Assembly (NCBI GenBank): GCA_945885655.1 | Contig: CAMCZE010000002.1 | Span: 1-36,993, forward strand | Reading direction: 5' to 3' | From: Bacteriovorax stolpii | GTDB taxonomy: Bacteria; Bdellovibrionota; Bacteriovoracia; Bacteriovoracales; Bacteriovoracaceae | DNA: 36,993 bases | Shown here: piece by piece, positions 8,610 through 27,309 of the stretch | Position numbering within the stretch: position 1 is the stretch's first letter | Layout of the letters: every line of letters begins with the position of its first letter | Notes under the pieces: model-generated | What the model was told of the DNA's origin: nothing | Seen by the model: only the letters and a program-made list of their open reading frames with translations | Database searches by the model: none | Made by a program: the position numbers and the translations under genes

Positions 8610-10010
8610 ATGCAAGAAAACGAAGACAATCAGGATCCAGAAAATCAAGACCTCTTACAGGATCTCTCGGAAAACGGGAGAACTGAAGAGCTTGTTGAAA
8701 TGTTTGAAGAACTTCCAACGATGGATGTTGCCGATTTTTTAGAGGAAAAGCCAGTTCAAGATGTTGTCAATTATCTTCTTGAACTTGACCTGGAAGATCA
8801 GGGAAGGATTTTTTCTGACCTATCTCATGACCTTCAATTAAAAATATTTAACCTCGTTGACCGCAGAACTTTTGCCCGTATTTTCGGACAAATGTTCTCA
8901 GATATTCGGGCCGATCTCTATCAAGAGCTTTCTAAAGAAGAACAAATTGAACTTCTCCCCTATTTAGATAAAAAGGTTCGAGAAGACGTTATTATTCTAT
9001 CAGCTTATCCACCGGAAACGGCCGGTGGAATTATGAACACGGATTTTGCCACCATCTTCGCTGACATGACTTCATCTGAAGCTTTGAATAAAATTCGTAA
9101 AGATGCTCCTTCAAAAGAAATGATTTATTATATTTACGTCGTTGATAATTCCATGGTCATGAAAGGTATCGTCACACTCAAAGATCTTGTGATGAATGAG
9201 CCCCAAACCAAGGTAACTGATTTTCTCAACGAGTTTTTCATCTCCTCAGAAGTTAACGAAGATAGAGAATCGGTCGCTCAAAAAATTGAACGTTATGATC
9301 TTGTTGCCATTCCTGTACTTAACTCCCTTAACCAGCTCGTTGGGATTGTTTCGCATCAAGAGGCCATTGATATTATCCGTAAAGAAGAAACGGAAGATTT
9401 AGAAAGACTCATGGGGATCATGCCCTCAGAAAACGACGAAGAGTATCTTGCCACTTCTTCTTTTCACCATTTTAAAAAGCGAGTCATCTGGCTCGTGTCT
9501 CTAGCAGCTATCGGAATTCTATCAGGAATGATCATCAATGAGTATCAAGGTCTACTTGAACAATTTATTATTCTTGCTATGTACATGCCTATGATGGCAG
9601 CAACTGGAGGTAATACAGGTTCTCAAGCTGCAACCGTTGTTATTCGAGCTCTATCTCTTGGTGAAGTTACTGATAAAGATTGGCTTAAAATTGTTCTAAA
9701 AGAATGCCGTATTTCTTTTATGCTTTCAGTTTGTGTCGCCGCTCTCACATATCTTAAAATCGCATTTCTTTCATTTCATGCTCTGCTTCCCACAAATTTC
9801 AGCATGAGCTACATCGGTATTATCATTTCTATCGCCATTGCTATCCAGGTTATAACTTCCGCCATCATTGGGGCCAGCCTTCCACTTATTGTAAGACGCT
9901 TGGGTGGTGATCCGGCCGTAGTCGCAAGTCCGGCCATCACCACAATTGTGGATATTACAGGTCTACTTATCTATTTTACCGTTGCAACATTAACCTTAGG
10001 TGTTTCCTAA
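8610..10010 (+). CDS. mgtE: Magnesium transporter MgtE
   Basis: MgtE N-domain and CBS organisation (YLDKKVREDVIILSAYPPETAGGIMNTDFATI), followed by the TM domain MPMMAATGGNTGSQAATVVIRAL and RRLGGDPAVVASPAITTIVDITGLLIYF. The start is either TTG 8598 or ATG 8610. Confidence 0.95.
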   Translation: MQENEDNQDPENQDLLQDLSENGRTEELVEMFEELPTMDVADFLEEKPVQDVVNYLLELDLEDQGRIFSDLSHDLQLKIFNLVDRRTFARIFGQMFSDIRADLYQELSKEEQIELLPYLDKKVREDVIILSAYPPETAGGIMNTDFATIFADMTSSEALNKIRKDAPSKEMIYYIYVVDNSMVMKGIVTLKDLVMNEPQTKVTDFLNEFFISSEVNEDRESVAQKIERYDLVAIPVLNSLNQLVGIVSHQEAIDIIRKEETEDLERLMGIMPSENDEEYLATSSFHHFKKRVIWLVSLAAIGILSGMIINEYQGLLEQFIILAMYMPMMAATGGNTGSQAATVVIRALSLGEVTDKDWLKIVLKECRISFMLSVCVAALTYLKIAFLSFHALLPTNFSMSYIGIIISIAIAIQVITSAIIGASLPLIVRRLGGDPAVVASPAITTIVDITGLLIYFTVATLTLGVS

Positions 10011-15411: not shown

Positions 15412-16737
15412 ATGAGATTTCTCATGCTCATCATTTTATTTTCCTGCGGCAAGCACACAATTCCTACATCAAAAGACTTGTTTGATGATGATGGTGACCA
15501 AATCCTTAATTATGAAGAGATCGGCGACAATCAACACATCGCTCAAGTGCAGGCACTTAATGAAATCCAAGGAGTATTAAGTTTTGGCCATAAAAAGAAC
15601 TCACATGAAAGAATAGAACTTCTATTTGATAATCAGATTAATTTTACAAACAGGGCCTATGTTCTTTTAACAAAAAATGCTCGTTTTATCACTCAGGATG
15701 AATACTTTTCGGAATTCGCAAAACTAAGATTATATAATTCTAAACAAAATTTTGACATTAACTTAGACTCTTATAACATTAAATTGAATTTTAAAGCTCC
15801 TGTTAAAAAAGACTATCACCTCGTGTATGTTCATAAGGATAAAAAAAGAATACTTGCTCCTTGGAGCTTAAAAGTCGATATCACATTATCCAAGACCGAT
15901 TTACAAAATCTTCTTTCAAATAAATCACATATTATTCTTACAAATAACTCGACCCAACGTATTCAAGAGAAGACTTTTAGGGTCTTTTATAGTGATGGTG
16001 TTACAAGCACAATCTATTATGTTTCCAGAGATTTCGGTTTTTCTAATTTCTTAAAGTTGATGAAAGTTGATAGTTATATACTCAGTGATGATGTTCATTT
16101 CTTTTTTGATAAACGAAGCGATCAAGTTGAGGAATGGTGGGTTAGAGACTTGGGAAATGATAAAGTTATTGCGAAGGCCCCAATCAGTACCTTAAAAAAC
16201 GTTTTTCTCCAAGGATATAATCTGACAAACATTATTGTAGATAGACGCAAGGGTTTTACTTATGCCAATGCCAATTTAAATAATCCTGAAGGAGCAAAAG
16301 TATTTTTAAAAATTCACCCTACCATGACCTCTGTTGGTCTTAATGCTTATAGTTCAACATACACAAGAAATAATTCCCTAGAGAGATCAATAACATGTAT
16401 CAATTATTATCGAGCTCCAGCAGAAGAAGTTAGCGTACCTATCACGATAGATCTTTTTACTCAGGAAGTTCATTTTTCTTCACTCGGAGTAGTTATTCCA
16501 AACGATTGGAAGCTTTATGAAGGTTCTGACAAAAATGGCCTGTATTGGGAAGTCGGTTTTAATTCCTTACCACCGATGTTTATAATGAGTTTACCCAATA
16601 AAACTTTTCCTCCAGGACATTATATCGGTCTCTACAACACTACATGTCCACAATATGCAACCGTTATAACGGTTCCAGTAAGCGATGAAGGTAGATTTCT
16701 TCTTGAAATTGAAGCCTATGTTGAGAAGATGGAATAA
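15412..16737 (+). CDS. Predicted lipoprotein with an N-terminal EF-hand-like calcium loop
   Basis: MRFLMLIILFSCGKH (short lipoprotein signal with lipobox LFSC), followed by DDDGDQILNYEE, which fits the DxDxDGxxxxxE loop spacing loosely. Confidence 0.6.
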   Translation: MRFLMLIILFSCGKHTIPTSKDLFDDDGDQILNYEEIGDNQHIAQVQALNEIQGVLSFGHKKNSHERIELLFDNQINFTNRAYVLLTKNARFITQDEYFSEFAKLRLYNSKQNFDINLDSYNIKLNFKAPVKKDYHLVYVHKDKKRILAPWSLKVDITLSKTDLQNLLSNKSHIILTNNSTQRIQEKTFRVFYSDGVTSTIYYVSRDFGFSNFLKLMKVDSYILSDDVHFFFDKRSDQVEEWWVRDLGNDKVIAKAPISTLKNVFLQGYNLTNIIVDRRKGFTYANANLNNPEGAKVFLKIHPTMTSVGLNAYSSTYTRNNSLERSITCINYYRAPAEEVSVPITIDLFTQEVHFSSLGVVIPNDWKLYEGSDKNGLYWEVGFNSLPPMFIMSLPNKTFPPGHYIGLYNTTCPQYATVITVPVSDEGRFLLEIEAYVEKME

Positions 16738-18524: not shown

Positions 18525-19556
18525 ATGAAACTGATTCTATTCATGTACCTTAGTTTATCTTATTTGACTGCATTCGGTGGAGATCTTCTTTCGGTTGAAA
18601 CCAAAACTATCGAAATTTACCGGAAAGCTGTACCCTCCACTGTAAACGTTTCAAATATAAAACTGGCCCGGAATTCCTTTTATGGTGAAATTGAAGTTCC
18701 ACAAGGGGCCGGTTCTGGATTTGTTTGGGACCAGGAAGGTCACATCATCACTAACTTCCACGTTGTTCAAGGTGGCAATAGTTTTGTTATCACTTTTTAT
18801 AATGATCCTAAACATTATAAGGCCAAACTCGTTGGTACTGCTCCAGAAAAAGACATTGCAGTCCTTAAATTACTAGAGAAACCAACGAAACTTTCTCCCA
18901 TTGAATTCGGTTCATCTAAAGATCTTCTTGTAGGTCAATACTCATTTGCTATTGGATCACCTTTTGGTCTTGATTATACACTTACTTCTGGTGTGATTTC
19001 AGCGCTTGGAAGAAAAATTGATGGTATTGGCGGTGTAAAGATCAACGACATGATTCAAACTGATGCTGCTATCAACATGGGTAACTCTGGGGGTCCTCTC
19101 TTAGACTCATCTGCAAAACTTATTGGAATGAATACCGTTATTTTTTCGACCAGTGGATCAAGTGCGGGACTTGGGTTTGCTGTACCGGCAGACACCATAA
19201 GAATGATTGCGCCTCAACTCATCCAACACGGGAAACTAATACGTCCAGGGTTGGGAATTGGAATTGTTCCAGACAGTATGAAAGAGCGTCTTATACAAGG
19301 CAATAAAGGCATCATCGTTTCTTACGTAGATGTTAAAGGATCTGCAGGTAAAGCAGGTATTCAAGGCATGACCCAAGATCGATTTGGAAGAATGTACTTA
19401 GGAGACGTGATCTTAAGTGTAGATGGCCAAGAAGTGAACGGACTTGATGATATTTATCAAGTCCTTGAGAAAAAGAAAATTGGCGACACTGTGAATGTTA
19501 CTCTACGTCGAGAGGGAAAAGCAAAATCAGTTAAAGTGACACTACAGGCCCTGTAA
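18525..19556 (+). CDS. HtrA/DegP-like trypsin-like serine protease with one PDZ domain
   Basis: Signal peptide; GSGFVWDQEGHIITNFHVV, DIAVLKL, IGSPFGLDYTLTSGVISA, TDAAINMGNSGGPLLD, C-terminal PDZ. Confidence 0.93.
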   Translation: MKLILFMYLSLSYLTAFGGDLLSVETKTIEIYRKAVPSTVNVSNIKLARNSFYGEIEVPQGAGSGFVWDQEGHIITNFHVVQGGNSFVITFYNDPKHYKAKLVGTAPEKDIAVLKLLEKPTKLSPIEFGSSKDLLVGQYSFAIGSPFGLDYTLTSGVISALGRKIDGIGGVKINDMIQTDAAINMGNSGGPLLDSSAKLIGMNTVIFSTSGSSAGLGFAVPADTIRMIAPQLIQHGKLIRPGLGIGIVPDSMKERLIQGNKGIIVSYVDVKGSAGKAGIQGMTQDRFGRMYLGDVILSVDGQEVNGLDDIYQVLEKKKIGDTVNVTLRREGKAKSVKVTLQAL

Positions 19557-20693
19557 GTTTTTAACTGCATTTTTTAAAGTTACTTCTTTTTTAGCAAAAC
19601 AAAACCTTAAATACCTCTCTCCTTCAGTTGATTTCAAATAAAATGCTGAAGGAGGAACGGTAGCTACTTTATTTTCTTTGATTAGTTTTAGAGCATAATC
19701 TACATCATTGAGTTTTGTTTTTCCTGAAATAGGAACCATCATAAAATATGTGCCTTTAGGGCTTGAGAAATCAAAACCTAACTGCCGCATCTCCTTATAG
19801 AAGAAATCTCTTTTTTCTTTATATAATGAAACAAAACCAGGTAAATATTCAGGCAACTTTTTTAAACTTTCAGCAACACCCTCTTGCATAGGAGTTGAGA
19901 CAGAAAAAGTCACATATTGATGAACTAATCGGCAGGCCTTTGAAACAGTTTCGTTAGCGCATATCCAACCAATTTTCCATCCCGTCACACCAAAAGTTTT
20001 TCCGGCACTTGAAATAGTAATTGTACGCTCCTTCATACCTTCAAGAGTTGCTGTTGGAATATGCTTACAACCATCAAAAACTAAAAACTCATACACCTCA
20101 TCCGACAAAAGATAGGCATCAGATTTTTCCGCGGCTTTCGCCACCATTTCAATTTCTTGTTTAAGCCACACTTTCCCTGACGGATTATGGGGATTGTTAA
20201 GAATGATGAGTTTTGTTCGAGGTGAAATAGCAGCATCTAATTCTTTTTGATCAATTAAAAAATCGGGAGCATGCATCGTAACTGGAATAGGTATACCACC
20301 TGCCATCTTAATTGATGCAACATAGGAATCATAAAATGGCTCCAGTACAACAACTTCATCACCAGGGTTAATGAGGGCCGTGATCACAAGATAAATTGCT
20401 TCTGTTGCTCCTACTGTTACTGTCACTTCTGATTCTGGATGATAGTTTAAATGATAAAAACTTTTATAATAATTTGCGATCTCCTGGCGAAGGTTCGCCG
20501 TTCCATGAAAGGGTGCATACTGATTATGGCCCTCCTGCATTTTTTTATAAACAATGTCCTTGAGCCAGTCTGGCCCATCAAAATCAGGAAATCCCTGTCC
20601 CAAGTTAACAGCATTATGTTCACGGGCAAGTTTTGAAATCACACCAAAAATCGAATCTTTAAAACCGGCAATACGGAGAGCTGTATCTTTCAT
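19542..20693 (-). CDS. Class I/II pyridoxal-phosphate aminotransferase (YbdL/kynurenine aminotransferase-like)
   Basis: NLGQGFPDFDGPDWL, LNNPHNPSGKVW, SSAGKTFGVTGWKIGW, RLRFCFAKK-like C-terminus (RYLRFCFAKKEVTL). Confidence 0.9.
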   Translation of the reverse strand: MKDTALRIAGFKDSIFGVISKLAREHNAVNLGQGFPDFDGPDWLKDIVYKKMQEGHNQYAPFHGTANLRQEIANYYKSFYHLNYHPESEVTVTVGATEAIYLVITALINPGDEVVVLEPFYDSYVASIKMAGGIPIPVTMHAPDFLIDQKELDAAISPRTKLIILNNPHNPSGKVWLKQEIEMVAKAAEKSDAYLLSDEVYEFLVFDGCKHIPTATLEGMKERTITISSAGKTFGVTGWKIGWICANETVSKACRLVHQYVTFSVSTPMQEGVAESLKKLPEYLPGFVSLYKEKRDFFYKEMRQLGFDFSSPKGTYFMMVPISGKTKLNDVDYALKLIKENKVATVPPSAFYLKSTEGERYLRFCFAKKEVTLKNAVKNLQGL

Positions 20694-20733
20694 GCTAAAA
20701 CCTCTTCTTTCAAATCTATCATTTTAAGCAAGA

Positions 20734-23610
20734 CTATTCAATTTGTTGAGTGATTTCCAAATACGACATATTACGACGAAGGTTTTGAATATAGACATTT
20801 TCGTCAGGGGTAGGATGTTCTGTGTTTGATTGTAGATATTTACTGCGCCCCATATAAATGTAGGCCAAATATTCCAGACGGTTTTCACGAGTAATCTGCA
20901 CTTTATCTGCATCATTCTTATTTTTTTCAGCAATAGTTTTCAGCCTAACCATGGCATCGGCCAAATAGGCCATGGTTGCAATCGCTGCATTTTTTGGTTC
21001 ACCTAAATTATCATCTTTAACATCGGGATATTTATTTCTCCATTCTCCCGCAGGTAAAAACTTTATCTGCGTAAATCCACGTGAGTTTTTTTCGTCATAT
21101 TTTTTATCAATAAAAAGATTTGCAATATCTTTATATGTCGATAGAAGCCATTGCGTATTTTCTTTAAGGAAATATTTTTCGCTTCGACCAAAGTCACTTT
21201 CGTTTCCCATAACAGCGTAGGCCATCATCGCGAGGTCATTATAATCATCATTATCCAAAGATAAGGCCTTCATTAAAGTTGATTTTTCTGATACTAATGT
21301 GTTTACAAAGATTTCAGAATCTTTCGTTTTTCCCTGTGGATTAGTAATCTTTATCTGAATCGGTCTAGAAGATTTAGTTGAATTAAAATTATACAATCCT
21401 AAATCTTTAATTGGCACAGGATTCTCTGAAAAGAGATTAATCTGTCCATTCTTTAAAACAAAATGATTCCCCTCTTCTTCTGGCAAAACATAGACCTTAC
21501 AAGCTGGACCCATCCATTTTTTGATAGTTTCAAAATCTTTTTCTTTAAGATTTACACATCCTCCAGTGACTCTTCTATCTGCAGGGTTTCCGGTTCCAAA
21601 ACGTTTGTATCGTTCGGGGAGATTGGTAGGAACTTGATGAATAGCAAAAACAATATCTTTACTTGTCTGGGTAGAAAGTGAAAAAAGATTATTGTTAAAA
21701 TTCTCTTTATAATAATCATTGTTGTTTTTGAGTTGATCAACGGTAAAAACACCAGCGCCTGTCGTTTTGTTAGATAATTTCTCAAAGTCTGTTGCTTTGG
21801 TGAATCTTGTTCGTTGATCCGAAATTCGAGAGCCCACCAAAACTTCTGTTTCAAAAACTTGTATTCCATTTAATGCATACACTTTAAGACTAGCAAGTCT
21901 TTTACTTACTACAATATAGTGGCCACAGTCCTTGCTTGGAAAGTCACGGTGATAATTTAAAATAATTTCTTCATCTGAAAGATACTGGTATGATTTACGA
22001 CGATTTTTTTCTACCTTCACGTCCTGAGCTGCAGGTTGACGACTAAATGGTGATGATGGATTTTTACCAGTAATTGAATCGTAGGTTTGATTTTCAAAAG
22101 TATAATATGGAAAACTATTTCTAATCGCATTGGCCCTCACAAGAAGGATCGCAGGGTTTTCAGATTTCAAATCCTCGGCCAGAATATCCATGCCTTTTTT
22201 TCTCATCTCCATAACAATGATAGTTGCCGGATTTTGATTCATTCCTTGCAAATTATATAATTGTCCTTTATGAACAAACGTCTCGTCTCCATTAAGCATG
22301 GCCTTTACTTGAGAATTTAAATAATCTTCATCATCAGAAGTTATATAAGATCTGTAAAGGGCCCTGCGGGCAGGAGGAAGAAGATTCAAAGCATCTTCAA
22401 TAACAATAACTTCACCTGTACTTCGTTTATAAAGCTTACCCTTATTTTCAAAAATCTTATCTTCACTCATTATGGCCGATGCCATCTTTTGTTGAAATTC
22501 TAAGTCTTGTTTTTCTATATTTTCGAGTAAGCCTGCTTTTTGTTCCCGTTTAATAATTTTCAGAGGATCTTGAATCATGAGACCAACATCAGAAACATAG
22601 ATATTATGAGACTGCTCAAGATCTGCACGCTTTTGTCCTGCTGGTCGTGATGGAGATGAAACATGAACTGGATTTTTCTGAGCATCCATAAATATTATTT
22701 TACTTGTAGATGCACTCACCTTGGTAGAAGTACCCGTTTTATTTCTTGGTTTTTTTGTATGTTTCACTTTAAGCCATAAATCCCCATATGAGAGATCTTC
22801 AAATAACTCATCATCTGTATGAAGTTTTTTTGTAATACTCTCCCAAAGCACATTCTGAATGTCGTTATTTTTCATAAATAGCTCTGACATAGACATATCA
22901 CTCGGATCACAGATCTCATCATTTTGGCAGGCCTGTGGTACGTTCATCGTATCAAAAAAATCATTCATTTTATTTTGTAGATCACTCATTATCTGATCCA
23001 GACCACTAAGCTTCATATCGATATTAAGTTCTCTTTTATTTTTAGTGTGAGGTATTCCATAATCGTGATTGATCATCTTTACAAAGTTCATAACACCTTG
23101 AGGGCCATCGGTCGTGAACATGCGGTGATCATACACGCCATTTTTTTTTGTTGCTTTTTCTTTCTTCGCAATTACGGCCAGAAGTTTTAAATCTGAAGCA
23201 TTCAGCTGGAATGGTTTCGATTCTTCTCCAAATTCTTTAATGAGAATATTTTGAAGATATGGAGCAATCTCGGCCAGGGTGGAACGAGACAGTGGTTGAG
23301 CTTCAAAAGCTTTGCGGGCCTTGATAAACTCTGGTTTACTTGAGGTATATTTCTGATTAAGAAGATCTAGAATGGTCTTTTCAATTGTCTTAACTTTATT
23401 ATGTTGGTCTTCTTTTTGGGCCTTAAGATATGTCCATGCAAGACGATGAAGGGTGATGTCAGATTGAAGTTTAAGAAATTCCCCGGCTTCTTTTTTATCT
23501 ACATCCGTAGCAAATAATACTTTCAGTGCATCCAGGCAGCTCCGCGAAGTGCCAAAAACACTTAGAGAAATAAGTCCGCTTATGAAAAAGACCAGAATTT
23601 TTTTTATCAT
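20734..23610 (-). CDS. 958-aa secreted L,D-transpeptidase (YkuD) with a C-terminal lysozyme/lytic-transglycosylase-like domain
   Basis: Signal peptide MIKKILVFFISGLISLSVFG. YkuD region HYIVVSKRLASLKVYALNGIQVFETEVLVGS...FAIHQVP...RRVTGGCVNLKEKDF. C-terminal MAYAVMGNESDFGRS...NSRGFTQIKFLP...NAAIATMAYLAD resembles the SLT pattern ES...S.GLMQ. Confidence 0.8.
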   Translation of the reverse strand: MIKKILVFFISGLISLSVFGTSRSCLDALKVLFATDVDKKEAGEFLKLQSDITLHRLAWTYLKAQKEDQHNKVKTIEKTILDLLNQKYTSSKPEFIKARKAFEAQPLSRSTLAEIAPYLQNILIKEFGEESKPFQLNASDLKLLAVIAKKEKATKKNGVYDHRMFTTDGPQGVMNFVKMINHDYGIPHTKNKRELNIDMKLSGLDQIMSDLQNKMNDFFDTMNVPQACQNDEICDPSDMSMSELFMKNNDIQNVLWESITKKLHTDDELFEDLSYGDLWLKVKHTKKPRNKTGTSTKVSASTSKIIFMDAQKNPVHVSSPSRPAGQKRADLEQSHNIYVSDVGLMIQDPLKIIKREQKAGLLENIEKQDLEFQQKMASAIMSEDKIFENKGKLYKRSTGEVIVIEDALNLLPPARRALYRSYITSDDEDYLNSQVKAMLNGDETFVHKGQLYNLQGMNQNPATIIVMEMRKKGMDILAEDLKSENPAILLVRANAIRNSFPYYTFENQTYDSITGKNPSSPFSRQPAAQDVKVEKNRRKSYQYLSDEEIILNYHRDFPSKDCGHYIVVSKRLASLKVYALNGIQVFETEVLVGSRISDQRTRFTKATDFEKLSNKTTGAGVFTVDQLKNNNDYYKENFNNNLFSLSTQTSKDIVFAIHQVPTNLPERYKRFGTGNPADRRVTGGCVNLKEKDFETIKKWMGPACKVYVLPEEEGNHFVLKNGQINLFSENPVPIKDLGLYNFNSTKSSRPIQIKITNPQGKTKDSEIFVNTLVSEKSTLMKALSLDNDDYNDLAMMAYAVMGNESDFGRSEKYFLKENTQWLLSTYKDIANLFIDKKYDEKNSRGFTQIKFLPAGEWRNKYPDVKDDNLGEPKNAAIATMAYLADAMVRLKTIAEKNKNDADKVQITRENRLEYLAYIYMGRSKYLQSNTEHPTPDENVYIQNLRRNMSYLEITQQIE

Positions 23611-23655
23611 ACCTTAGTCAGCTTGTCGGATAGGACGGCCAAAAACTTTAATTTC

Positions 23656-24672
23656 TTAGTCCTTAGGATCCATAGCATCCCGGACACCCTCTCCTATGAG
23701 AGAGAGCATAGTAAGGGTAAAAAAGAGTGCTAATGAAGGGTATACAGCTAACCACCAACCCTCAGTAAAATGCTTTTGGGCCTGATTAAGAAGCTCACCC
23801 CAACTTGGCGTTGGGGGAGTTAAACCAAAACCCAAATAATCTAAGCTGGCCAAACTGACCACGTTTCCCGCAATCACAAAAGGTGAAAAAGTTATGATGG
23901 GAGACAAAGAATTAGGTAAAAGATGTTTAAAAAAAATTCGAATATTTCCTGCACCTAAGGCCCGGGCCGCTTCAACGAATTCTTTTTTTCTATTTTTAAG
24001 ATACTCACCCCTTACATAATAACTGATGCTTATCCAGCCAAAGAGACTAGAAAGAAGAACCAATAAAAGAAGGGTCGGTTTAAAAATAGAAATAATGATA
24101 ATAAGAAGAAAAAACTGAGGAACAGTGGAAAGTACCTCAACGACTCGTTGACCCCAAAAGTCAGTTCGGCCTCCAAAATATCCCATGACTCCACCTAACA
24201 AGGTTCCAACAACAAATGTCAGAACCCAAACAAGAAATGAAAAAGTGATGGAGTACCTAAGTCCATAAAGAAGACGAGTAAGTATGTCTCGCCCCCTATC
24301 ATCAGTTCCCATCCAGTTCTCAGAACTTGGCGCAGAAGGATATGCATCTACTTCATGATTTGATTCAAATGGATCCCATTGAATAACTGGCCAAATAATA
24401 GTGTCGCCTTCGTCTAGTTCCAACTCTCTGTAGTTCATAACCATGGCATTTTGAACGCCGAAAAGGCTCGGATGATAATCTACCAAGACAGGAAAATATG
24501 TATGATTATCGTATCTTAAATAAAGAGGTTTGCTATTGGCCCAAAATTCAGCAGAAAAACTGAAAATACAAGAAATGCCAACAAGCCAACATGAAATCAC
24601 GGCCAATCGTCTGGCCTTAAAACGACGCCATTTTTTTAATGTCTCATCATTACGAATTAATTTTTCAATCAT
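23656..24672 (-). CDS. Peptide ABC transporter permease, YejE-like
   Basis: KKWRRFKARRLAVISCWLVG...KPLYLRYDNHTYFPVLVDY resembles the YejE N-terminus; GTDDRGRDILTRLLYGLRYS; EAARALGAGNIRIFFKHLLPNSL EAA loop. Confidence 0.88.
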   Translation of the reverse strand: MIEKLIRNDETLKKWRRFKARRLAVISCWLVGISCIFSFSAEFWANSKPLYLRYDNHTYFPVLVDYHPSLFGVQNAMVMNYRELELDEGDTIIWPVIQWDPFESNHEVDAYPSAPSSENWMGTDDRGRDILTRLLYGLRYSITFSFLVWVLTFVVGTLLGGVMGYFGGRTDFWGQRVVEVLSTVPQFFLLIIIISIFKPTLLLLVLLSSLFGWISISYYVRGEYLKNRKKEFVEAARALGAGNIRIFFKHLLPNSLSPIITFSPFVIAGNVVSLASLDYLGFGLTPPTPSWGELLNQAQKHFTEGWWLAVYPSLALFFTLTMLSLIGEGVRDAMDPKD

Positions 24673-25697
24673 GTGAAATCAATCCTTGGATCAACGAGGA
24701 CATAAGCAAAATCGGAAAGAATATTGCCCACTAAAAAAAGAGCACTTTGAATAAAAACAAGACCCATAATCACATTATAGTCTCGAGAAAGAATGCTTTT
24801 GTAACTTAAAAGACCGATTCCATCGAGTTGGAAGATTGTTTCAAGGAGAAGAGATCCAGCAAAAAAAACAGTTAAAAATCCACCCAGACCAGTCACTATT
24901 GGAATGAGGGCATTTCTTAAAGCATGTTTCATATAAATAACTTTTTCATCCAGGCCCTTGGCACGTGCAGTGCGAATATAATCTTTTTTGATCTCCTCAA
25001 TCAATGAGTTTTTCATAAGAACAGTGAGACTCGTAAAAGACCCAATCGTGTAACAGATTAATGGTAAAGTAAAATGATGAACTCGATCGATAAATTGTTC
25101 CCAACCATTGAGATCATCAAAATATTCAGACTGAAGTCCACCTACTGGAAAAATCTCTAAAAAACTTCCACCTGACAACATCACGATAAGAAGGATTGCA
25201 AGCATGAACGATGGAATAGAATAAAAAACAAAAAGAATGATACTTGATGAAATATCAAAAAAACTACCATGCTTAATGGCCTTCATTATTCCTAAGGGAA
25301 TGGAAATGAGATAACTCAAGAACAAAGAAATAATACCAAACTGTAACGAGACAGGAAATTTACTTACAATCACATCCACCACAGGCTCTTCATAAGTAAA
25401 ACTCTCACCAAAGTTTAAAGTGACAATATTTTTAAGCCAAAGGATGTAGCGCTCATGCATTGGTTTATCAAAACCATATTGTTTTTTTAGAGCTTCCATA
25501 ACTTCGTCTGAAACCCCTTGGGATCCCCCACGCTGAGTACTTGCCCCCCCTCCATCTCCTCCGGAAAATCGGATCTGTTGAAGTCTTTGCTCAATGGGCC
25601 CACCAGGGGCCATATTGATAATGACAAAAACAACAACCGTCACGCCTAAAAGAGTGGGAATAAGGATAGCTAAACGTCTTAAAAAATACTTCAACAT
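24669..25697 (-). CDS. Peptide ABC transporter permease, YejB-like
   Basis: MLKYFLRRLAILIPTLLGVTVVVFVIINMAPGGPIEQ, YGFDKPMHERY, RTARAKGLDEKVIYMKHALRNALIPI, LVDPRIDF C-terminus. Overlaps the yejE-like start (ATGA). Confidence 0.9.
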   Translation of the reverse strand: MLKYFLRRLAILIPTLLGVTVVVFVIINMAPGGPIEQRLQQIRFSGGDGGGASTQRGGSQGVSDEVMEALKKQYGFDKPMHERYILWLKNIVTLNFGESFTYEEPVVDVIVSKFPVSLQFGIISLFLSYLISIPLGIMKAIKHGSFFDISSSIILFVFYSIPSFMLAILLIVMLSGGSFLEIFPVGGLQSEYFDDLNGWEQFIDRVHHFTLPLICYTIGSFTSLTVLMKNSLIEEIKKDYIRTARAKGLDEKVIYMKHALRNALIPIVTGLGGFLTVFFAGSLLLETIFQLDGIGLLSYKSILSRDYNVIMGLVFIQSALFLVGNILSDFAYVLVDPRIDFT

Positions 25698-25698
25698 A

Positions 25699-27309
25699 TT
25701 ATTCTAACTTCCAGTACATGGTTCCAATATCATAAACGTAGGTGTCTTTGACTTTTTTGACTCTTTTACTATGAGCATAAAGTGAGTACTTGCTGTTAAA
25801 CCAAAAGACATATGGATAGTCTGCCGAAATGATCTCATGAACTTTATTAAGAAGTGGAATTCGTTTTTCTTTTTCATAGATCTTACGAGAATCATCAATC
25901 AAACGGTCAACCTGAGGATTTGAATAACTGATGAAGTTTGATCCTGCTCCTTGTATAGAACTGGTATGCCAAATTTGTTTTGGATCCCAATCAACACTCC
26001 CCCCTCCCCATGCTAATCGGACAGCTTCAAAATTCTTTTCATCAAGAAGCTTAATAAATGAGTTCCACTCAATATTTTTAATATTAAATTCCACTCCAAC
26101 CTTACGAGCATCTTCTTTATAGATCGTAAGATATTTCATCTTTTCTTGAGTAGGCTCAAGAATCGTAATAGATAGTTTTGTTAATTTCCCTGAGATTTTT
26201 TTGTCTAATATCCCATCTTTATCAGAATCCTTCCACCCGGAATCATGAAGTAGCTTAAGAGCTTCCTGAGGATTGAATCCTAATACAGGCACGGACTGAG
26301 AAGCATAATCAGACTGAATATAAATGGGACCAGTGGCATTTTCAGATAAGTTATACTCAAACTTATCTAACATCAGTGGTCGATTAAAAAGCATGCCTAG
26401 TGCTTTACGAACATTCCGATCTTTTAAAATTTTGTGTTTAAAATTCCAAGCAATGAAATTATATCCTGTCGGTGTTTTGTTTACTGTTTTAACTTTAACG
26501 ATCTTATCATCCCATATCTTTCCAACAGTCTTTTTCACAAAACCATCTGCTCTTAAAGATAAAAAATCGATATCGCCTTTTTTCAAAAGCTCTAAAGAAA
26601 CATTTTCTTCAGAAGCAAACCGTAGGACAACTTTAGGAATTACGAAAGCATCTTTTTCTGTTTCGGCTCCATTACCCCACCAGTCTTTATTTTTGGTCAG
26701 GATAATTTTCTGACCTTTGTCATATTTAGTGAATACATAGGGACCAGTCCCTATCAATATTTTACCAAACTCTTTTTTGTTTTCTACTTTTGAATAAAAA
26801 TGTTTTGGAAGAACTTTAAGTGTTGCGCACACATCAAAGTTTTGAAAATAATCATCTTTTACAATAAATCTCACTGTGTATTTATCAAGAATCTGTACCT
26901 CTTTAATTGACTCATAAAATGGACGGTACTGAACTGCTTTAAAATCGTCCGTGAAAATCACATCATAAGAATACTTCACATCTTCAGAAGTGAATTCAAT
27001 TCCATCATGCCACTTCACTCCTTGGCGTAGTTTAAAATCAAAAACACGTTTATCCTTCGACATTGTCCATCCAGTAGCAAGCGCAGGTTTCCAAGCAAAT
27101 GTATCTGGATCATTACTTAAGAGACCTTCAACGACATAGGCATGGACTTGTGGTGTGTAACCATCAGAACTTGATAATGGACTGAGTGTCGTAGGCTCAC
27201 CTCCAATATTGAGATAAATTGTGGTGTTTGATTTTTTATTTTTACCCTGACAGGCCATAAGGGCCAACAAAGAAACAAATAAAAATAACTTTACGTATGC
27301 AAAGGACAT
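25699..27309 (-). CDS. Extracellular solute-binding lipoprotein, family 5 (YejA/OppA-like)
   Basis: Lipobox LALMACQGK; GEPTTLSPLSSSDGYTPQVHAYVVEGLL; FKLRQGVKWHDGIEFTSEDVKYSYD. aaggag RBS. Confidence 0.9.
   Translation of the reverse strand: MSFAYVKLFLFVSLLALMACQGKNKKSNTTIYLNIGGEPTTLSPLSSSDGYTPQVHAYVVEGLLSNDPDTFAWKPALATGWTMSKDKRVFDFKLRQGVKWHDGIEFTSEDVKYSYDVIFTDDFKAVQYRPFYESIKEVQILDKYTVRFIVKDDYFQNFDVCATLKVLPKHFYSKVENKKEFGKILIGTGPYVFTKYDKGQKIILTKNKDWWGNGAETEKDAFVIPKVVLRFASEENVSLELLKKGDIDFLSLRADGFVKKTVGKIWDDKIVKVKTVNKTPTGYNFIAWNFKHKILKDRNVRKALGMLFNRPLMLDKFEYNLSENATGPIYIQSDYASQSVPVLGFNPQEALKLLHDSGWKDSDKDGILDKKISGKLTKLSITILEPTQEKMKYLTIYKEDARKVGVEFNIKNIEWNSFIKLLDEKNFEAVRLAWGGGSVDWDPKQIWHTSSIQGAGSNFISYSNPQVDRLIDDSRKIYEKEKRIPLLNKVHEIISADYPYVFWFNSKYSLYAHSKRVKKVKDTYVYDIGTMYWKLE

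Follow-up and report, generated by a model that had tools for sequence, protein, structure and literature searches.

Several known systems of peptidoglycan enzymology come close to the protein described here. The YkuD family of L,D-transpeptidases (PF03734) includes B. subtilis YkuD, LdtMt2 and E. coli DpaA, and the GH23/SLT family of lytic transglycosylases (PF01464) includes Slt70 and MltF. DslA (Bd0314), a deacetylation-specific lysozyme of the predator B. bacteriovorus, is a muramidase of the lysozyme superfamily whose two catalytic glutamates stand 11 residues from each other (PMC7511926). Two further studies bear on how such activities might be connected. L,D cross-links were found in 2024 to inhibit lytic transglycosylases, not lysozymes (PMC11390936), and in Agrobacterium the YejABEF transporter was identified as an importer of anhydromuropeptides (PMC9790009). 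In a literature search of partial coverage for YkuD domains paired with SLT or lysozyme-like domains, also in phages including crAss-like ones, no title or abstract describes the pairing.

Here we describe a protein that joins two known reaction types, one of them through a domain family without an assignment, in an unusual and recurrent fusion. It is encoded in a window of 36,993 nucleotides, the whole stretch of DNA that was analysed, which is one complete contig of a draft genome of 318 contigs. The gene begins with an ATG codon and, together with the features of its transpeptidase domain, is located as follows.

20734–23610, minus strand: exported L,D-transpeptidase / lytic-transglycosylase-like fusion of 958 residues, stop codon included (from the open reading frame and full-length homologues)
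21487–21921, minus strand: YkuD L,D-transpeptidase catalytic domain, residues 564–708 (Pfam PF03734, E 4.9e-7; Foldseek)
21637–21639, minus strand: predicted catalytic His658 in FAIHQVP (from the motif)
21556–21558, minus strand: predicted catalytic nucleophile Cys685 in RRVTGGCVNL (from the motif)

Full-length, intact counterparts at 45–47% identity are found in genus mates, and because the fusion recurs at this length its reading frame does not exist by chance; a chance frame and an assembly artefact were both ruled out by this conservation. An earlier note on this DNA had placed the 958-residue frame at exactly these coordinates, and the motifs it quoted (IHQVP, TGGCVNL, GNESDFG, NSRGFTQIKFLP and AAIATMAYLAD) are all present in the protein. 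Named assemblies that carry relatives belong to Bacteriovoracaceae, Halobacteriovorax and Bdellovibrio, so the source organism is a relative of Bdellovibrio-like predators.

The YkuD domain scores 30.9 bits over the full PF03734 profile, for which 23.4 is the cut-off, and His658 and Cys685 supply both residues of the motif H-x(n)-[ST]-x-G-C within the fusion, which makes the earlier note's assignment of this domain certain. The β-sandwich fold of the family agrees: Foldseek pairs the full-length model with YkuD, LdtMt2-type enzymes and DpaA at a probability of 1.00, with E-values of about 0.005 for the whole-chain query. The likeness to the family thus comprises the domain itself, the catalytic pair and the fold, at a sequence identity of about 10–17% to solved L,D-transpeptidase structures. 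Unlike the known YkuD enzymes, however, the window protein adds a domain of the glycan-cutting type and an N-terminal region of 560 residues. The same genome contains eight PF01464 matches and two more to PF03734, of which one stays under the family cut-off, so the fusion is not its sole enzyme of either kind.

The second catalytic candidate lies at the C-terminus.

20737–21378, minus strand: domain resembling lytic transglycosylases and the lysozyme superfamily, residues 745–958, outside Pfam (from conservation, profile alignment and fold)
21199–21201, minus strand: predicted catalytic Glu804 in GNES (conserved in 74 of 74 homologues; falls on the catalytic Glu of SLT in the profile alignment)
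21067–21084, minus strand: SRGFTQ motif, residues 843–848, counterpart of the SLT G-L-M-Q (S, G and Q conserved in 74 of 74)

Searches of this domain against Pfam, NCBIfam, PHROGs and PDB sequences, with the single sequence or with a profile, returned no match, and PF01464 is matched neither by the window protein nor by any of 26 homologues. The Glu/SRGxxQ motif is conserved to a degree that chance would by no means produce. Among the 74 homologous domains Glu804, Ser843, Gly845, Gln848 and Thr879 are each invariant, position 805 is occupied by Ser or Thr, and Glu804 is the only acidic residue of the domain that never varies. When a profile of the 74 sequences was aligned blind to one of 29 SLT domains from this lineage, the score was 30.2, of modest significance (P 4.9e-4); 17 unrelated control families, assembled from nearby genes, reached at most 19.2 and a reversed profile 13.3. 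The register of this alignment pairs Glu804-Ser805 with the catalytic Glu-Ser of SLT, the SRGxTQ motif with the GLMQ stretch, and L-x-x-P-x-N-A-A...YL with L-x-x-P-x-x-N-I...YL. The domain therefore shares with GH23/SLT a Glu-Ser at a helix end, G-x-x-Q, P-x-N-A-A..YL and Y-x-x-G, all in the same order. It differs in escaping recognition by Pfam, in a longer insert between the Glu and SRGxxQ, and in having Y-x-Y-x-G where the family has A-Y-N-x-G.

An AlphaFold model of the domain from 26 sequences is confident (pLDDT 87, pTM 0.80) and places Glu804 near the C-terminal end of a helix spanning residues 787–808. Against a library of viral folds a single match was significant, to a Virus NIOZ-UU157 LysM protein (E 2.4e-6, TM 0.52) and by fold alone; next in rank came GH19, a putative endolysin and LT_GEWL proteins. 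No PDB structure was matched at E ≤ 0.001, a level also missed by the hits with the best TM-scores, which include Tse3 (0.32), MltF (0.28) and a GH19 chitinase. Could the region, given this and the lack of any match in the sequence libraries, be an all-helical binding domain unrelated to lysozyme, similar in its motifs by convergence? We regard this as very unlikely: the invariant E, S, G and Q follow the GH23 order, the profile match exceeds its controls, and two libraries place members of the lysozyme superfamily high among their fold matches. Conservation, the blind SLT alignment, the confident fold with its viral LysM match and the single invariant acid all point to a divergent member of the lysozyme superfamily, and the domain is likely to have a lytic-transglycosylase-like fold. 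The earlier note had proposed an SLT- or goose-lysozyme-like C-terminus and named the conservation and catalytic position of the Glu as a test, which the residue passes, being invariant in all 74 sequences, near a helix end and aligned with the SLT catalytic Glu; the PDB fold comparison, on the other hand, is suggestive, with nothing at E ≤ 0.001.

DslA resembles the window domain as a divergent lysozyme-superfamily enzyme of a predatory relative, akin to GH23 and with an ES motif at a helix end (PMC7511926), although no YkuD domain has been described for it. With its two glutamates as precedent, the C-terminal domain might be a lysozyme or muramidase that uses Glu817 as a second acid, instead of a lytic transglycosylase. 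Residue 817 is Glu in 65 of the 74 homologues (88%) and GH19-type hydrolases are among the fold matches, but the remaining 9 have Gln or Lys, and the model puts Glu817 on a helix (811–818) and not on a strand. Since, moreover, Glu804 is the sole invariant acid, as in the single-Glu transglycosylases, and the order and spacing of the motifs follow GH23, we find a muramidase improbable and continue with the transglycosylase-like reading. Membership in the DslA family itself (PDB 6TA9) was considered and rejected; the profile of the window domain matched no PDB chain at E ≤ 10.

How widespread is this domain? A scan of genome contigs with the single sequence found nothing, and homologues were recovered by an alignment query, which located the domain in 70 of 291 sampled Bdellovibrionota genomes. 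The 74 distinct copies were sorted by eye, on the basis of motifs and remnants, into three classes: an intact YkuD domain precedes 18 of them, crAss-like phage LysM proteins included, a YkuD remnant that lacks the catalytic pair precedes 36, and in 20 there is no YkuD domain. A catalytic transpeptidase is thus missing from 56 of the 74 proteins, all of which keep Glu804, so that the two activities are often uncoupled. Among them is a 607-residue homologue in a Bdellovibrio genome (G105; L164, C1 1065500-1069200) with a degenerate YkuD domain and an intact SPETNFG...SRGPTQI; its transglycosylase-like domain is encoded at about 1,065,967-1,066,626 on the minus strand. On a tree of the domain the three YkuD classes require 5 changes, compared with 32 when the labels are shuffled.

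Two homologous loci show further arrangements. At L035:10088-13342 a fusion has a YkuD domain without either catalytic residue; it follows a gene (L035:8062-10107) whose YkuD-like product retains the His/Cys motif intact, without the transglycosylase-like domain and without a Pfam match of its own. Judged by these sequences, transpeptidase and transglycosylase-like functions appear to be split between the neighbours. On the minus strand of L059 (G034), near 9574-9576, a single in-frame TAA separates the N-terminal domain of a homologue from the rest, which may reflect a true split, a pseudogene or an error in the sequence.

Copies outside the bacteria come from phages. A search of IMG/VR with an alignment as query found six contigs, on which the phage link rests; their viral nature was checked through a Pfam match to the crAss capsid. 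In one of them, L123:4843-6717 encodes a protein with LysM, YkuD and transglycosylase-like domains containing IHA, SNGCIN, QETKGG and SRGLTQI, and the contig has a Crass_capsid match at 3e-122 and portal-like genes beside this gene. Proteins of this architecture, from 624 to about 1000 residues, are encoded between portal and capsid genes in L123, L125, L126 and L127, the last being a more distant copy with the motifs SMHW and SNGCTR. They share with the window protein a YkuD domain with His and Cys followed by the transglycosylase-like domain with its Glu and SRGLTQI, but possess LysM, and the N-terminal helical domain is missing from them. As all catalytic residues recur in these crAss-like phage proteins, the pairing of the two domains is no accident of assembly, and the idea that the fusion is unique to the source organism was discarded in view of the other bacterial and phage fusions. 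A tblastn search of 50,697 named phages with the window domain and with the phage protein gave no match.

The phage copies, all with an intact YkuD domain, lie outside the bacterial ones on a tree whose root was set at the midpoint and not inferred. Under this midpoint root, an ancestor with an intact YkuD fusion followed by repeated decay would be the simpler reading of the sequences. Such repeated decay of a transpeptidase, beside a glycan-cutting Glu that never varies, offers a natural experiment on the way from wall enzyme to regulator.

What does the loss of the catalytic pair mean for proteins that have kept it? The glycan cutter might be the working enzyme throughout, with the YkuD domain serving as a substrate-binding or regulatory reader of stem peptides that is catalytic in some lineages by inheritance. 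The invariance of Glu804 speaks for this, as do the 36 homologues, the Bdellovibrio protein included, that retain the YkuD frame without His and Cys, since an active site that is lost from a retained fold indicates a non-catalytic use of that fold. In the window's own clade, however, no member has lost His or Cys although the proteins diverge by about 55%, which indicates selection for catalysis there, and we consider a mere reader unlikely for the window protein. Our preferred reading, held with some reserve as the better-than-even option, is a dual-catalytic periplasmic peptidoglycan editor, whose catalytic residues are present and whose reactions and location we infer; its target may be the cell's own wall or that of prey. 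The earlier note's assignment of two domains stands, while its picture of both sites at work and acting on prey goes beyond the data, as most homologues, including that of Bdellovibrio, lack the catalytic residues of the transpeptidase. About nineteen L,D-transpeptidases are reported to be encoded by B. bacteriovorus, with two of them acting on the prey wall (PMC12546842), and by analogy a prey-wall role of the fusion is possible.

The dual-catalytic editor would work in the following way. After export directed by the signal peptide-like start, the helical domain and the hairpin repeats of the N-terminal region would probably bring the enzyme into place at the wall or at partners. With His658 and Cys685, the YkuD domain would bind the third residue of a stem peptide as an acyl-enzyme and then transfer the acyl group to an amine, giving an L,D cross-link or a D-amino-acid exchange, or to water. 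The C-terminal domain, with its predicted fold and Glu804, would cut the glycan strand at MurNAc. With both domains on one chain, glycan strands could be opened and stem peptides refastened or trimmed at the same site.

If both halves work, the product of the YkuD half should restrain the other, given that L,D cross-links inhibit lytic transglycosylases. A single chain with both domains makes this antagonism testable within one molecule. One may speculate, though we think it rather doubtful, that crAss-like phages and Bdellovibrionota have a wall-editing unit in common, a glycan cutter with its own L,D-cross-link brake for controlled opening with a sealed rim, in which the brake has turned into a non-catalytic reader in Bdellovibrio. 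The transglycosylase-like domain also constitutes a large family of putative peptidoglycan enzymes outside Pfam, found in crAss-like phages and in Bdellovibrionota, among them the tractable predator Bdellovibrio.

The roughly 550 N-terminal residues that had been left unassigned in the earlier note can now be divided, from the model and from profiles, into four parts.

23551–23610, minus strand: signal peptide-like N-terminus, residues 1–20, MIKKILVFFISGLISLSVFG (from reading the sequence; predicted helix 2–19)
22786–23550, minus strand: N-terminal helical domain, residues 21–275 (AlphaFold model)
22609–22785, minus strand: linker of low confidence, residues 276–334 (pLDDT <50)
21985–22554, minus strand: three helix and β-hairpin repeats, residues 353–542, with a period of 58 residues (from strand positions in the model)

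A lipoprotein was considered and dismissed, as Cys25 lies behind the signal peptide-like start outside a lipobox context. The helical domain has no Pfam match. It recurs at the C-terminal end of two proteins that differ in all other respects (L062:6056-8266 and L063:2162-3841), and is therefore a mobile domain. The linker, at about residues 276–334, is probably disordered, judging by the model. The hairpins of the three repeats are predicted at residues 386–395, 444–453 and 502–511, and a profile made from the repeats recovers each copy separately (iE 2.5e-12, 4.7e-14 and 1.7e-11). None of 1000 shuffles aligned as well as copy 1 with copy 2; copy 3 is not significantly similar to either in pairwise comparison and is detected through the profile only.

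The surroundings of the gene in the window's genus suggest a further connection to peptidoglycan.

23656–24672, minus strand: Yej/Opp-type permease, best family YejE, below cut-off (family search; conserved neighbour in the genus)
24669–25697, minus strand: Yej/Opp-type permease, best family YejB, below cut-off (family search; conserved neighbour in the genus)
25699–27309, minus strand: peptide-type substrate-binding protein, SBP_bac_5 (Pfam; conserved neighbour in the genus)
19542–20693, minus strand: downstream PLP aminotransferase of the methionine aminotransferase subfamily (family search; conserved neighbour)

The binding protein, the permeases, the fusion and the aminotransferase are encoded on the same strand with gaps of at most 45 bases, and the YejE-like permease is likely in the same operon as the fusion; scans for promoters and terminators gave results at chance level. 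Gene order is kept in the genus wherever contigs reach. A Yej partnership across the whole family was rejected, as the synteny stops at the genus. The permeases score 333.6 against 445 bits for YejB and 259.5 against 439 bits for YejE, under the curated cut-offs and yet best of all families. This is where the likeness to YejABEF lies; in contrast to that system (PMC9790009), the adjacent genes include none for an ATPase, and the peptide-binding protein is not typed as YejA or YepA. Because YejABEF imports anhydromuropeptides, a Yej-like importer next to a transglycosylase-like enzyme makes sense as far as gene order goes, and in the genus the transporter encoded upstream would probably take up the wall fragments.

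The same neighbourhood invites a purely degradative reading, in which the YkuD domain would be an L,D-carboxypeptidase or a DpaA-like L,D-endopeptidase and the protein would feed the importer. DpaA is indeed the second best fold match of the full-length model, next to a gene order that places a Yej-type peptide importer alongside. Classical transpeptidases match equally well, however, and the fold cannot distinguish transfer from hydrolysis; we think this reading quite improbable and retain the dual-catalytic editor.

Within the genus the fusion is a variable element. It is present in 10 of 25 genus mates and patchy on the permease tree. In six mates that lack it (L203-L208, L215-L220) it is cleanly absent from the site equal to window positions 20693–23656, where the permease and aminotransferase genes adjoin, 14–36 bases apart. 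Between species the flanking transport and aminotransferase genes are about 68–87% identical and the fusion about 38–50%, so the fusion protein evolves fast. Near the cluster and conserved in genus mates, the window also encodes a matrixin-like secreted metalloprotease (PF00413; 31354–32094). At 15412–16737, in a conserved neighbourhood, lies the gene for an exported protein of 441 residues without a Pfam match, which evolves very fast, with 23–26% identity between genus mates.
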